In this document: one piece after another, positions 40,486 through 62,625 of the stretch
How positions within the stretch are numbered: position 1 is the stretch's first letter
Layout: the number at the start of each line of letters is the position of its first letter
Source of the DNA: Thalassomonas sp. RHCl1
GTDB lineage: Bacteria > Pseudomonadota > Gammaproteobacteria > Enterobacterales > Alteromonadaceae
Length of the DNA stretch: 63,079 nt
NCBI RefSeq assembly: GCF_947387555.1
Contig: NZ_CANDNZ010000025.1
Coordinates: forward strand, 1 to 63,079
Direction of reading: 5' to 3'
The notes under the pieces: model-generated
What the model saw: only the letters and a program-made list of their open reading frames with translations
Told to the model about the DNA's origin: nothing
Database searches by the model: none
Position numbers and translations under genes: made by a program

Positions 40486-43400
40486 ATGAAATTAAAAATA
40501 CCAGCTCTGCTGGCATTTTTTTGTGTACCTGTAACCCAAGCAAGCGAACACGTGCTTAATGCGGTTACCGGCAATCAGCTTTCAACCGGCGCCAGCATCA
40601 CCAGCGAAACAAGTGCTTCACTCGAAGGGGTTTGTTATAACTGTCCCGATTTGGCAAAAATAGCCGATGCCAGCACCTTTGATGACGCGGTTTATTATGC
40701 CGATGCCATCAATGCCGTAAACAACAACTACACAGCGGCAGAAATTAAATCGGCAATTAATACCATCATCAGTGCCGGCCATAAAGTATTAACCTACTCA
40801 GAGGTTTGGACGGCATTAACCGAAACCGATGAAGATCCTGCCAACCCGGATAACGTTATCTTATTATACAAGGGAACATCCCTGGCAAAATTATCCAACG
40901 GCAGCGGCGCACAAAGCAGCGATCCGGATAACTGGAACCGGGAACATGTTTGGGCGAAAAGCCATGGTTTCTCAAGTTCCTCAAACGAAGCCTATACCGA
41001 TATCCACCACCTAAGACCCACAGACATTTCCGTCAACTCCTCCCGCGGCAACCTCGACTTTGATAACAGCATGAACACGCTGAGCGAGTCTCCCAATACC
41101 CGTATCGACAGCAACTCGTTTGAGCCACGCGATGAGGTTAAAGGTGACGTTGCCCGTATGGTGCTCTATATGGATATCCGCTACGAAGGCCTGGATACCT
41201 TTACCCCGGACTTAACGGTTGTAGATCGTTTAACCTCCACCAGCGAACCGGCCCTTGGCCGTTTATGTCGCCTGCTTGAATGGCACGCCGCAGATCCGGT
41301 TGATGCCACTGAGCAAAACCGTAATAACCGCATCTATGAATACCAGGGCAACCGTAACCCGTTCATTGACCACAGCGAATGGGTCGACTTGCTCTATAGC
41401 GCCGATACCTGCGTTGATGATACTACCGGCGGAGACGGTGGTGGTACCGACGGCGGCACCGATGGCGGCGGTACTGATGGCGGTGGTACTGACGGTGGCG
41501 GCACCGACGGCGGCACAGGCAATATCAGCACCAATGGCCAGCTAACCATCACCGAAGTGATGCAAAACCCAAGCGGCCTGAGCGATAACGACGCCGAATG
41601 GTTTGAAATCTTAAATACCGGTACCGGCGACATCAACCTTAACGGCTGGACCGTCAAAGATGAAGATAGCGACAGCTTTACCATTACAGAAGATGTCATC
41701 ATCCCTATGGGCAGCTACGCCATTTTAGGCAAAACCACCGACACCTCAATTAACGGCGGCATCAATGTCGTTTACGGCTATGGCGATGGTATGTATTTAT
41801 CCAACAGCTCGGATGAAATTCTGCTGGTTTCCCCTGAAGGAGAAGTGGTTGACGCTATCGCCTACGATAACGGCAACGAGTGGCCGGATCCAAACGGCGC
41901 TTCCATGACCCTGATCAACGCCACCACAGACAACAGCATTGGCGGCAACTGGACCACAGAAAGCAACAACAGCTACACCGACGGCAACTTTGGTACCCCG
42001 GGCACCGGCGATGCCACCTTTGAGTTAGTGATCACCGAAGTCCTGCAAAACCCGAGCAAGGTTTCTGACAGTGCCGGTGAATGGTTTGAAGTGTTAAACA
42101 AAGGGGCCATTGCCGTTAATATCAATGGCTGGACCTTACGTGATGATGACAACGACAGCCATCAAATCACCGAAGATGTCATTGTACCGGCAGGCGCCTA
42201 CTCGGTCTTCGCCAACAACAGCGACAGCGCAAGCAACGGCGGTGTTGAAGCCATTTATCAATTCTCCGGCATGTATTTAAGTAATGGCAGTGATGAACTG
42301 GTACTGGAAATGCCTGACGGCACCATTGCCGATTACATCGCCTGGGACGGCGGCTCACAATGGCCTGATCCCAACGGTAAGTCCATGACCTTAACCAGCG
42401 CTTCCCTTGACAACAATGTCGGCAGCAACTGGTTTGAAGAAACCAGCAAAAGCTTTGGTAGCGGTGATTTCGGTACCCCGGGCACAGGCCCTGATGTTTC
42501 CGACGGCACCGACGCCAGCACTATTGGCATCTGCGCCGATGAAGCCAGCCTGATCAGCTCCATCCAGGGCATCGACAATATCACCAGTACCCAGGGACAA
42601 AAACATGTCATTGAAGGGGTGGTCACTTCGGTGTTTGCCAGCCTTGACGGCTTCTTTGTCCAGGAAGAGCTGACGGATGAAGACGGCGATGCGCAAACTT
42701 CAGAAGGTATCTTTGTTGCCAACAACGCCAATACCATCACTCCGGCAGTTGGTTCTGTAGTACGTGTCTTTGGTGAAGTTTCGGAAAGCTACGGCAGAAC
42801 CCAGTTAAACGCCAGCGAAGATCTGCTTGAATGTGGCACCGGCAGCGTCAGTGCTACCAGCTTAAGCCTGCCATTTGCATCGCTCGAAGCGCCGGAAGCC
42901 CTGGAAGGTATGCTGGTCACTATCGACAGCCCGTTAACTGTCTCCAACAACTATGACTTAGGCAAATACGGTGAAGTAACCCTGTCTAACGGCCGTATCT
43001 TTACCCCGACCAACATCTATCGTCCGGGTACAGCCGAAGCGGTAGCCCTGGCAGCAAGCAATGATCTCAACCAGATCACCCTGGATGACGGACAAAACGG
43101 CACTAACCCGGAAACCGTTATTTACCCGGGCGGCAACTTGTCGGCAAGCAATACATTGCGTGCAGGCGACCAGGTAACGGCTTTGACCGGCATTATGGAT
43201 TACAGCTACAGCAAGTACCGCATCATCCCAAGCCAGGCGCCTGACATTGCTGCGGTAAACACCAGAACAGATGCACCTGAATTAACGCCGGGTAACCTCA
43301 CGGTTGCCAGCATGAACGTACTCAACCTGTTTAACGGTGACGGCCAGGGCGGCGGATTCCCAACCTCACGCGGTGCCGACAACTTAGCCGAGTACGAGCG

Positions 43401-44412
43401 TCAGGTTGCCAAAACCGTTGCCGCCATCATTGCCATGAACGCCGATATTATCGGTTTGATGGAAATTGAAAATGACGGTGTCGATGCCAACAGCACCCTG
43501 GTTGACCTGGTAAGCCGCTTAAACGCCGTTGCCGGTGACAACAGCTACGCCTTTGTTAATACCGGTGGACCGATTGGCACAGATGAAATCGCCGTGGCCT
43601 TGTTATACAAGCCGGGCACGGTTTCTTTAGCCGCCGATGCCCAGGTGAACAACGACGAAATCTTTAACCGTCCGCCACTGGCGCAAACCTTCAGCCTCAA
43701 TGAAAACGGCGAGCAGATCACTATTATCGCCAACCACTTCAAGGCGAAACTTTGTACCAGCGCCACCGATCTCGATAAAGATCAAGATGACGGCCAAAGC
43801 TGCTACAACGCCAAACGTCAGCTGCAGGCCCAGGCGCTGATCGACTGGATTGCCAGCGACAGCCAGCTGAGCACGCAAAAAGACGTGCTGGTAATGGGTG
43901 ACTTAAATGCTTATGCCATGGAAGATCCTATCGTTAAGTTTACTGACCAGGGTTATACCAACCTGATCAAACACTTCAACGGTACTTACGCCTATTCCTA
44001 CACCTACGGCGGCGCTGCCGGTTACCTGGATCACGCCCTGGCGAGCGATTCTTTACTGGCGAAAACCGTAGATACCACAGACTGGCATATCAATGCCGAT
44101 GAGCCTTTGGTACTGGATTACAACACGGAAAATAAATCTGAGCAGCAGCTGGCAGACTTTTACGCAGAAGACCCTTACCGCTTTTCTGACCATGATCCGG
44201 TAGTGATCAGCTTCAACCTGGAAAAAGCGGCGAAAAGCGGCGACGTTAACGGTGACGGCACTTTGGATTTCACTGATTATATGCTGATTTACTCCTTGTT
44301 GAACGTTAGTCAGGGAGCGGATAACTTTAATGCAGAAGCGGACTTAGATGCCGACGGCCAGATCACTTTTGCTGATATGCGCTTATGGCAACAAATTTAC
44401 GCTAACCCTTAA
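40486..44412 (+). CDS. Exported double nuclease with dockerin-like tail
   Basis: A 1308-residue exported protein; ATG preceded by TTGAGGAAAAG. Signal peptide ends about residue 19 (VTQAS). Order: endonuclease I domain (about 45-310; NREHVWAKSHGF with His154, DIHHLRP with His174/175), a Thr/Asp/Gly-rich linker (about 313-345), two lamin-tail domains (about 350-500 and 515-665), an OB-fold-like stretch (about 700-800), an endonuclease/exonuclease/phosphatase domain (about 940-1245; LMEIEND, VMGDLNAY, SDHDPVV). The end has two calcium-loop repeats (D1253-N-D-G-D1264 and D1286-D-D-G-D1297) matching a dockerin. Lamin-tail plus EEP is the ExeM/NucH extracellular DNase layout; the added endonuclease I domain and dockerin are unusual. 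Likely degrades extracellular DNA for nutrients or biofilm remodelling. Confidence 0.9.
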   Translation: MKLKIPALLAFFCVPVTQASEHVLNAVTGNQLSTGASITSETSASLEGVCYNCPDLAKIADASTFDDAVYYADAINAVNNNYTAAEIKSAINTIISAGHKVLTYSEVWTALTETDEDPANPDNVILLYKGTSLAKLSNGSGAQSSDPDNWNREHVWAKSHGFSSSSNEAYTDIHHLRPTDISVNSSRGNLDFDNSMNTLSESPNTRIDSNSFEPRDEVKGDVARMVLYMDIRYEGLDTFTPDLTVVDRLTSTSEPALGRLCRLLEWHAADPVDATEQNRNNRIYEYQGNRNPFIDHSEWVDLLYSADTCVDDTTGGDGGGTDGGTDGGGTDGGGTDGGGTDGGTGNISTNGQLTITEVMQNPSGLSDNDAEWFEILNTGTGDINLNGWTVKDEDSDSFTITEDVIIPMGSYAILGKTTDTSINGGINVVYGYGDGMYLSNSSDEILLVSPEGEVVDAIAYDNGNEWPDPNGASMTLINATTDNSIGGNWTTESNNSYTDGNFGTPGTGDATFELVITEVLQNPSKVSDSAGEWFEVLNKGAIAVNINGWTLRDDDNDSHQITEDVIVPAGAYSVFANNSDSASNGGVEAIYQFSGMYLSNGSDELVLEMPDGTIADYIAWDGGSQWPDPNGKSMTLTSASLDNNVGSNWFEETSKSFGSGDFGTPGTGPDVSDGTDASTIGICADEASLISSIQGIDNITSTQGQKHVIEGVVTSVFASLDGFFVQEELTDEDGDAQTSEGIFVANNANTITPAVGSVVRVFGEVSESYGRTQLNASEDLLECGTGSVSATSLSLPFASLEAPEALEGMLVTIDSPLTVSNNYDLGKYGEVTLSNGRIFTPTNIYRPGTAEAVALAASNDLNQITLDDGQNGTNPETVIYPGGNLSASNTLRAGDQVTALTGIMDYSYSKYRIIPSQAPDIAAVNTRTDAPELTPGNLTVASMNVLNLFNGDGQGGGFPTSRGADNLAEYERQVAKTVAAIIAMNADIIGLMEIENDGVDANSTLVDLVSRLNAVAGDNSYAFVNTGGPIGTDEIAVALLYKPGTVSLAADAQVNNDEIFNRPPLAQTFSLNENGEQITIIANHFKAKLCTSATDLDKDQDDGQSCYNAKRQLQAQALIDWIASDSQLSTQKDVLVMGDLNAYAMEDPIVKFTDQGYTNLIKHFNGTYAYSYTYGGAAGYLDHALASDSLLAKTVDTTDWHINADEPLVLDYNTENKSEQQLADFYAEDPYRFSDHDPVVISFNLEKAAKSGDVNGDGTLDFTDYMLIYSLLNVSQGADNFNAEADLDADGQITFADMRLWQQIYANP

Positions 44413-44421
44413 CAATAAACA

Positions 44422-44458
44422 GGCACCGGCTCCCTGACCTTAGCTCAGGGCCGGTGCC
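44422..44458 (+). other. Very stable intergenic hairpin between nuclease and cohesin-like genes
   Basis: Arms GGCACCGG-CT-CCCTGA and TCAGGG-CCGGTGCC pair over 14 bp with a 2-base bulge and a 7-base loop. There is no T run, so it may shield the 3' end of the upstream mRNA, or attenuate rather than terminate, letting the two genes be expressed at different levels. Confidence 0.6.
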
Positions 44459-44488
44459 GCCAAACATAACCCTTTATTAGAGAAAAAG

Positions 44489-45079
44489 ATGAAAAACTTG
44501 AAAGCCCCCCATAAATTATTTACCGCCATCTTCTTAATGCTGAGTTTTGGCCTGAGCACCTTTTCCGCTCAAGCAGCACTTATCTTGTCATTTGATACAC
44601 CTGATAACGAAATTCAGGTAAATGACACATTTAGCGTAAATCTGTTCGCTGAAACAACAACCGATAGCGATGCTTTTTTCAGTTGGGATCTGAGCATTAA
44701 CTTTGATAGCAGCATATTCAACCTGGATAGCCTGGTATTGGGCGATGAGTTTGTTAGCGCACCTAACACTAATCTTGAAGATCTTTCTGCCACTTTACCC
44801 TTGTCACTGGCAAACCCATTTTTCCCAAGTATCTCAGGTGATGATATCTTATTAATCAGCTTTAATTTTACTGCGCTTGCCGCCGGAACTTCTGAACTGT
44901 TTACCAGCTTGGGGAATAATGATGCCGGGTTCACATCAGCATTCCTGCAACCGCTTGACGCTACTCATGCATCAACAAGCCTAACCGTTCAAGGTGCCAA
45001 TGAAGTTCCTGAACCCGGCGCTTTATTGCTGATGTTATTAACAAGCTTGTCACTGATGGCATTTCGTCGCAAAGCTTAA
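44489..45079 (+). CDS. PEP-CTERM protein with cohesin-like domain
   Basis: A 196-residue protein 76 bases after the nuclease gene. Signal peptide ends about residue 29 (AQAA). Residues about 30-165 have the layout of a cohesin beta sandwich: EIQVNDTFSVNLFAE, then FFSWDLSINFDSSIFNLDSLVLGDEF, then ILLISFNFTALAAGTSELF. The C-terminus is a PEP-CTERM signal (NEVPEPGALLLMLLTSLSL, then AFRRKA), processed by an exosortase not found in this window. Cohesins bind dockerins, and the preceding nuclease ends in a dockerin-like domain, so this may be its surface anchor. The PEP-CTERM call is firm; the cohesin call is by pattern. Confidence 0.8.
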   Translation: MKNLKAPHKLFTAIFLMLSFGLSTFSAQAALILSFDTPDNEIQVNDTFSVNLFAETTTDSDAFFSWDLSINFDSSIFNLDSLVLGDEFVSAPNTNLEDLSATLPLSLANPFFPSISGDDILLISFNFTALAAGTSELFTSLGNNDAGFTSAFLQPLDATHASTSLTVQGANEVPEPGALLLMLLTSLSLMAFRRKA

Positions 45080-61989: not shown

Positions 61990-62625
61990 TTAACGTCTCT
62001 GACGCTGACGGCTTCTAAAAACAAAACCTATTATGCCCAGGCCTAGTAACCCTAGTGTCATTGGTTCACTAACCTCAATCTGACTGTTACCATCTCTAAC
62101 AAGAAAGTGGCCAATTCCAGTAACTGAATTTTGAGGTAGATAACTACTACCGGGAGACATTTTAAAGGCTGTTGAGGTAGGATTCCCCTTGGTGGCTCCT
62201 GCCATGTAGAGATAACCTGATTTTTTATAGAAACCTTTAGATTTATAGCCAAAATAGGTTGCCCCAAACAGATCGATAAATGCTTCAGCTTCCACAGTAT
62301 CAACATCGGCTGAGCCGCGATAATAATCATCAGTAGCACTTGGTAAAGCCGTATCGATTAATGCCTCCACTTCTTGCCAGGTTGCAAAACGCCATGTTTC
62401 GAACGTCGTTGGCAAGTATTGCTCTACCCAATTATAAGATCTTGCATTTGTCTGACTTAAATCCAGCCATTCCAACCCAGTGCTGGTATCAAGCGTTGTC
62501 AGGTTATCACCCGCTTCTTTCCAATCACTTTCTATAAAGCTGGCCTGAACGGAAAATACTGATAATCCAGCAAGAAGAAAACCTGTCGTAATTGTTTTTT
62601 TTAGAGAGAGAAATTTATCATTCAT
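61990..62625 (-). CDS. PEP-CTERM sorted surface protein
   Basis: A 211-residue protein. Signal peptide ends about residue 29 (SVFSVQA). The mature domain opens with LTTLDTSTGLEWLDLSQTNARS, a motif frequent in PEP-CTERM proteins of unknown role, and contains aromatic-rich segments (YKSKGFYKKSGYLYMAG). The C-terminus EVSEPMTLGLLGLGIIGFVF, then a basic tail RSRQRQRR, is a PEP-CTERM signal with S in place of the usual P before EP. An exosortase elsewhere would process it. Function unknown; stands alone. Confidence 0.8.
   Translation of the reverse strand: MNDKFLSLKKTITTGFLLAGLSVFSVQASFIESDWKEAGDNLTTLDTSTGLEWLDLSQTNARSYNWVEQYLPTTFETWRFATWQEVEALIDTALPSATDDYYRGSADVDTVEAEAFIDLFGATYFGYKSKGFYKKSGYLYMAGATKGNPTSTAFKMSPGSSYLPQNSVTGIGHFLVRDGNSQIEVSEPMTLGLLGLGIIGFVFRSRQRQRR

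Follow-up and report, generated by a model that had tools for sequence, protein, structure and literature searches.

Thalassomonas sp. RHCl1 (Gammaproteobacteria; Alteromonadaceae; genome size 7.56 Mb) carries, within the 63,079 nucleotides of contig NZ_CANDNZ010000025.1 analysed here (the whole of this stretch is called the window), a gene for an exported nuclease ending in a dockerin and, 76 bp downstream and likewise on the forward strand, a gene for a small protein with a cohesin domain and a PEP-CTERM exosortase signal (Table 1). We consider it probable, at roughly three chances in four, that the two proteins form a two-protein exosortase surface-sorting module in which each enzyme has an anchor of its own, a reading that draws on the domain identity and predicted folds of both proteins, the recurrence of the gene neighbourhood, a link with exosortase and the covariation of dockerin and cohesin. 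An earlier, sequence-only reading had proposed that the cohesin-like protein holds the DNase at the cell surface in a cellulosome-like arrangement for nucleic acid scavenging. Its central idea is supported, since a cohesin fold is predicted and the two genes are neighbours in relatives, binding and surface location being inferences.

The end of the nuclease (residues 1252-1298) matched the Pfam family Dockerin_1 (PF00404) at 34.0 bits (E 3.4e-8; cut-off 22.9) and was the sole PF00404 match in its own genome at E<=0.001, whilst a marine dockerin profile matched the tail at E 1.5e-18. The calcium loops from which a dockerin ending had been read, D1253-VNGDG and D1286-LDADG, are present where they had been placed, and the predicted model of the tail (predicted local distance difference test, pLDDT, 93.1) had dockerins as its nearest solved folds. 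We rejected an ordinary EF-hand of the calmodulin type, for which EF-hand models stayed under their cut-offs and calmodulin-type folds received Foldseek probabilities of 0.04-0.06 versus 0.51-1.00 for the 41 top-ranking matches, every one a dockerin. Membership of the GlyGly-CTERM ExeM class (NF033680) was likewise not found for the nuclease (293.8 bits versus a cut-off of 1300), the C-terminus being a dockerin.

Judged from a family profile and the predicted fold, the domain of the 196-residue protein is a member of the cohesin superfamily. The family profile matched solved cohesins at 2e-14, and the predicted fold was a cohesin beta-sandwich whose 26 best VIA matches were cohesins; the best single-sequence match in the PDB, a Clostridium perfringens cohesin, was not significant (E 0.75). 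The tail of the protein scored 17.8 bits with TIGR02595 (NCBIfam cut-off 16), and the signal peptide, PEP motif, hydrophobic stretch and basic end are all present. What the sequence-only reading had observed is confirmed; it had made no mention of the Endonuclease I domain, the tandem Lamin Tail Domains, the ExeM/NucH identity of the nuclease or the second pair of this genome described below.

The pairing of the two genes was followed through 147 genomes of the same family. With the window's cohesin protein as query 35 matches were obtained in 29 of these genomes, and PF00404 gave 113 matches in 72. A PF00404 match lay 58-335 bp upstream on the same strand for 22 of the 35 cohesins, and a dockerin hidden Markov model (HMM), trained solely on 41 dockerins from other genomes, placed a dockerin-tailed gene directly upstream of 34 of them, L082 being the exception. 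Across all fetched loci a dockerin open reading frame (ORF) preceded 89 of 92 cohesin-like ORFs, a set partly ascertained through dockerins, and 34/35 is the less biased figure since the larger set contains loci fetched for dockerin hits (91 regions without an adjacent cohesin, 89 of them fetched and the remaining two overlapping fetched ones). Seen from the dockerin side, 74 of the 109 PF00404-positive ORFs had a cohesin-like ORF directly downstream, at a median gap of 24 bp (two of the 113 matches, outside any ORF as defined, were excluded).

The same association was found for ExeM nucleases of named genomes, a set comprising the best 80 of 581 loci obtained with an ExeM alignment as query (Colwellia, Paraglaciecola, Aliiglaciecola, Bowmanella, Rheinheimera, Pseudoalteromonas, Methylomonas, Methylocaldum and others). 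A dockerin end was present in 34 of the 80, and a cohesin neighbour in 23 of these 34 versus none of the 46 dockerin-less loci (Fisher 4e-12; 23/34 versus 0/41, 2e-11, without five edge loci; relatedness uncorrected in both). The five edge loci end less than 1 kb downstream, and L270 is among them, its ORF leaving the contig and its tail not readable. TIGR03501 (GlyGly-CTERM) matched 11 of the 46 dockerin-less proteins at E<=1, and a dockerin or a GlyGly-CTERM tail on ExeM would thus be alternative retention devices within one enzyme family. The alignments held 13 of 53 ExeM rows (A2) and 23 of 24 cohesins (A3). At two loci (L097:580-2055, minus strand; L111:6028-7503, plus strand) a second ExeM gene without a dockerin lies close downstream of a dockerin-ExeM/cohesin pair.

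Beyond the family the pattern loosens. In a class-level sample of 274 genomes, which included the window's own genome and one other family member, the cohesin profile A1 matched 25 genomes and PF00404 31; among 28 loci examined, nine had separate dockerin and cohesin ORFs in variable order, three had both domains in one ORF and four had no cohesin by our own HMM. At L199 and L215 (G322:C89), also outside the family, one large ORF has two cohesin domains flanking a dockerin.

An exosortase match was present in 115 of the 147 family genomes (114 over the cut-off), and in every one of the 59 genomes that have a pair or a cohesin hit, versus 56 of the 88 others (Fisher 5e-9, relatedness uncorrected). 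The window's own genome has a single exosortase (G000:C15:87834-88571, E 7.3e-48). A PEP-CTERM search at E<=1 gave 72 matches in it, of which 70 exceed the cut-off; some of the matches are due to chance, since the same lax search also responded in 7 of 14 control genomes. One further PEP-CTERM tail lies in the window (61999-62073, minus strand, 23.5 bits). Among the 89 partner cohesins, a hydrophobic stretch with a basic end was recognised by our own pattern in 88 and TIGR02595 matched 60 at E<=1, the motif being PEP in 42, SEP in 12 and a PAP/SAP-like variant in 26. A same-genus cohesin gene (L079:2498-2980, minus strand) ends just after the PEP motif and has no hydrophobic tail.

In the proposed module both proteins would cross the inner membrane by means of their signal peptides, the small PEP-CTERM protein would be processed and put into the cell envelope or matrix by the single exosortase, and its cohesin would capture the terminal dockerin of the nuclease in a calcium-dependent manner. 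The DNase would thereby be kept with the cell and not lost by diffusion, and its digestion products might be kept near the cell. The cohesin would serve as the anchor that carries the exosortase signal and the dockerin as the cargo tag, each enzyme's anchor being encoded beside the enzyme and the two domains presumably having evolved as a pair. The proteins might also bind for an end other than anchoring, with the cohesin protein acting as an escort or periplasmic holder (in folding, protection or passage to a secretion channel) before the enzyme, alone or still in complex, is finally released. Such a scheme would suit the separate export of nuclease and cohesin protein, and Shewanella ExeM is described in an excerpt of PMC6085458 as retaining most of its activity outside the cell when the membrane tail or rhombosortase is lacking; the hydrophobic stretch and basic end in 88/89 partner cohesins, the TIGR02595 matches in 60/89 and the exosortase link instead point to placement in the envelope, and we regard eventual release as unlikely.

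Dockerin and neighbouring cohesin vary in concert. Within the 22 genomes holding at least two pairs, the cohesin of the nearest outside dockerin resembled the cognate cohesin more than the paralogous one in 74 of 80 ordered comparisons, which are not independent. Paired dockerins were of two types, 64 of 89 with a C-terminal Cys pair (CTRxRCA-like) and 25, including the window's, without it, and the nearest cohesin in another genome belonged to the same dockerin type in 86 of 89 cases against a mean of 52 and a highest value of 66 in 50 shuffles. The Cys pair tail follows the last helix (for example L228:7687-7878 and L225:7603-7797) and may act as a disulphide clasp or add to the specificity as a second determinant. 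Between enzyme groups that are unrelated, the distances among dockerins and those among cohesins still correlated at rho 0.26, whilst within-group shuffles had a mean of 0.14 and none of 500 reached the observed value. Most informatively, for 36 ExeM pairs the partial r of the dockerin was 0.52 with the neighbouring cohesin (0/2000 permutations) versus -0.11 with its own catalytic domain, and the contrast held in the Cys-tail subset (0.47 versus 0.13) and for ExeM below 80% identity (0.50 versus -0.07). Covariation of this kind is what co-evolving partners would be expected to show; the same pattern would arise if the two domains were transferred together as one cassette, which would support the same functional link.

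The window's own genome had two matches only to the cohesin family profile, even at E<=10, and two dockerin tails by the dockerin profile (6e-19 and 1.5e-18, the next match being 0.15). These make two pairs, with each cohesin in a small protein adjoining one dockerin enzyme; in the second, 155 bp separate an M43 metallopeptidase from the cohesin that follows it (contig C5, L073). The sequence-only reading had suggested looking for dockerins on other enzymes of the genome. One anchored cohesin could alternatively serve several dockerin enzymes, as a dispersed cellulosome in place of private pairs, and in some genomes dockerin enzymes do outnumber neighbouring cohesins (five PF00404 matches in G050, four in G009), just as 33 of the 122 dockerin ORFs of all loci have no cohesin downstream. 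Such a shared docking surface is nonetheless improbable given the covariation of cognates within genomes (74 versus 6) and the two-and-two composition of the own genome. A third possibility, in which the two proteins do not interact, the tail merely capping the nuclease with calcium for stability and the PEP-CTERM protein being a surface protein unconnected with it, would agree with the low PF00963 score given below and is very improbable in view of the neighbourhood counts (34/35; 23/34 versus 0/46), the folds and the covariation.

ExeM nucleases made up 51 of the 109 dockerin ORFs and non-ExeM proteins 58, so the restriction to nucleic acid scavenging in the sequence-only reading does not hold. 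A domain scan of 41 other enzymes (40 paired non-ExeM enzymes and the second own-genome enzyme, 18 unpaired ones being left out) gave matches to M9 collagenase in ten, to M43 peptidase in five, to M4 peptidase in two, to porphyranase in two and to BNR in four, and single linkage placed the 89 paired enzymes in 20 groups, with eight singletons. The comparison with a cellulosome in the sense of a multi-enzyme scaffold also falls, there being one cohesin per small protein beside one enzyme, and no scaffoldin with several cohesins and many enzymes was found in the own genome. It seems fairly likely that one branch of exosortase sorting is modular and uses two polypeptides, with small PEP-CTERM cohesins as private plug-and-socket anchors for dockerin-tailed hydrolases from about 20 unrelated enzyme groups. 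On this view the two domains would move jointly between enzymes, and the module would be an alternative to GlyGly-CTERM on ExeM in Gammaproteobacteria.

Several observations weigh against the sorting module. The cut-off of Pfam's Cohesin model (PF00963) was not reached, the window's protein scoring 18.1 bits as a whole (E 0.0033) and 19.4 as the domain alone against a cut-off of 24.1; PF00963 found nothing in the own genome at E<=0.001 even with the cohesin gene present, a limit of the single-sequence test that the family profile overcomes. In the cohesin model 54 of 142 residues had a pLDDT of 50-70, and the PEP-CTERM model of Pfam (PF07589) was missed at 18.9 bits against 20.7. A first count gave 35 of 109 Dockerin_1-positive ORFs without a cohesin directly downstream, at least two of which are overlapping-start artefacts and two resemble ordinary EF-hand proteins, and 11 of the 34 dockerin-tailed named ExeM had no cohesin neighbour; together with the 33/122 above, the latter count means that pairing is not obligatory. 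The exosortase match of one of the 59 genomes (G101) is partial and under the cut-off, the Fisher tests make no correction for relatedness, and linked genes that are inherited together can produce some covariation of this kind without any partnership. What becomes of PEP-CTERM proteins is itself poorly understood.

Table 1. Features of the nuclease and cohesin genes in the window.
Feature	Position	Strand	Basis or remarks
Exported nuclease, 1308 residues	40486..44412	+	Signal peptide, Endonuclease I, tandem Lamin Tail Domains, ExeM/NucH, dockerin
Nuclease signal peptide (MKLKIPALLAFFCVPVTQA)	40486..40542	+	From translation, no predictor
Endonuclease I domain (PF04231), residues 83-298	40732..41379	+	E 3.6e-43
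First of two Lamin Tail Domains (PF00932)	41527..41865	+	Two stretches, E 7.4e-32; position of the best stretch
ExeM/NucH family extracellular endonuclease domain (NF033681), residues 709-1245	42610..44220	+	629.8 bits, cut-off 300
Type I dockerin, two calcium-loop repeats	44224..44406	+	PF00404, marine dockerin profile, model
Strong RNA stem-loop between the genes, no T-run behind	44422..44458	+	-26.1 kcal/mol, z -4.43
Cohesin protein (putative anchor), 196 residues	44489..45079	+	Signal peptide, one cohesin domain, PEP-CTERM
Signal peptide of the cohesin protein	44489..44575	+	From translation, no predictor
Cohesin domain, eight strands in the model	44573..44992	+	Family profile, predicted fold
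PEP-CTERM exosortase signal (VPEP, hydrophobic stretch, RRK)	45005..45073	+	TIGR02595

The intercistronic stem-loop may control the enzyme-to-anchor ratio. Hairpins of differing sequence fold in the gaps of several other pairs with longer gaps, in this case without a shuffle control, and a promoter and terminator scan gave a signal no better than shuffles. A plasmid origin was rejected, 42610-45076 having no near match in PLSDB. The nuclease itself is an exported fusion of two distinct nuclease domains, Endonuclease I and ExeM, with two Lamin Tail Domains between them (40732-44220).

Should the reading hold, these loci amount to a large collection of dedicated pairs made by nature, among them dozens of cohesin-dockerin pairs that have diversified in Gram-negative bacteria, and they sharply predict that a dockerin is a detachable sorting tag. 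The window's pair would give exosortase a simple reporter in the form of a nuclease of assayable location, and the system bears on how marine bacteria retain what is released when DNA, protein and algal polysaccharide are digested outside the cell. Wide searches of open-access PubMed Central (PMC) text, covered by their top matches and with subscription papers and preprints outside their scope, yielded no description of such pairs; in the same text no co-mention was found of PEP-CTERM with dockerin (with or without cohesin) or of dockerin with 'extracellular nuclease', and cohesin, dockerin and exosortase were co-mentioned in one paper, on methanotrophic archaea, which draws no connection among them. 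According to a passage of PMC5244752, no function was known in 2017 for cohesins and dockerins that lie outside cellulosomes.

Among known systems the nearest are single-cohesin anchors. OlpA and OlpC of Clostridium thermocellum are cellulosomal anchors with one cohesin each, and their solved complexes (3ul4, 4dh2) were among the fold-comparison matches of our cohesin model. According to excerpts of PMC5301203 and PMC11557425, ScaE of Ruminococcus flavefaciens is a single sortase-anchored (LPXTG) cohesin that holds the cellulosome, and Lachnoclostridium has single-cohesin proteins with C-terminal membrane helices. With all of these the window's system shares its folds and the principle that one cohesin with an envelope-sorting signal captures dockerin-tailed partners, but it differs in being Gram-negative, in bearing an exosortase signal and not a sortase or surface-layer homology (SLH) one, and in giving every enzyme, within a unit of two genes, an anchor of its own, the cargo being mainly nucleases and peptidases; unlike for the cellulosomal anchors, no multi-cohesin scaffold was found in its own genome, and it is therefore not a cellulosome. 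The cohesin fold likewise occurs outside cellulosomes in modules of Archaeoglobus fulgidus (2xdh) and C. perfringens (2jh2/2ozn), which to our knowledge are not exosortase-anchored, dedicated enzyme and anchor pairs, and non-cellulosomal cohesin-dockerin modules were reportedly treated by Peer et al. in 2009. GlyGly-CTERM/rhombosortase sorting, as set out in excerpts of PMC3237569 and PMC6085458, is also an envelope-sorting tail for the ExeM family, but in that case the enzyme itself bears the tag, whereas in the window's system one protein has the tag and another is the cargo, and cohesin and dockerin would link the two. The PEP-CTERM/exosortase (EpsH) system (excerpts of PMC1569441, in whose main text the words 'cohesin' and 'dockerin' are absent) shares its C-terminal signal with the window's cohesin protein; it sorts the proteins that bear the signal, whilst the signal-bearing protein of the window would be an adaptor.
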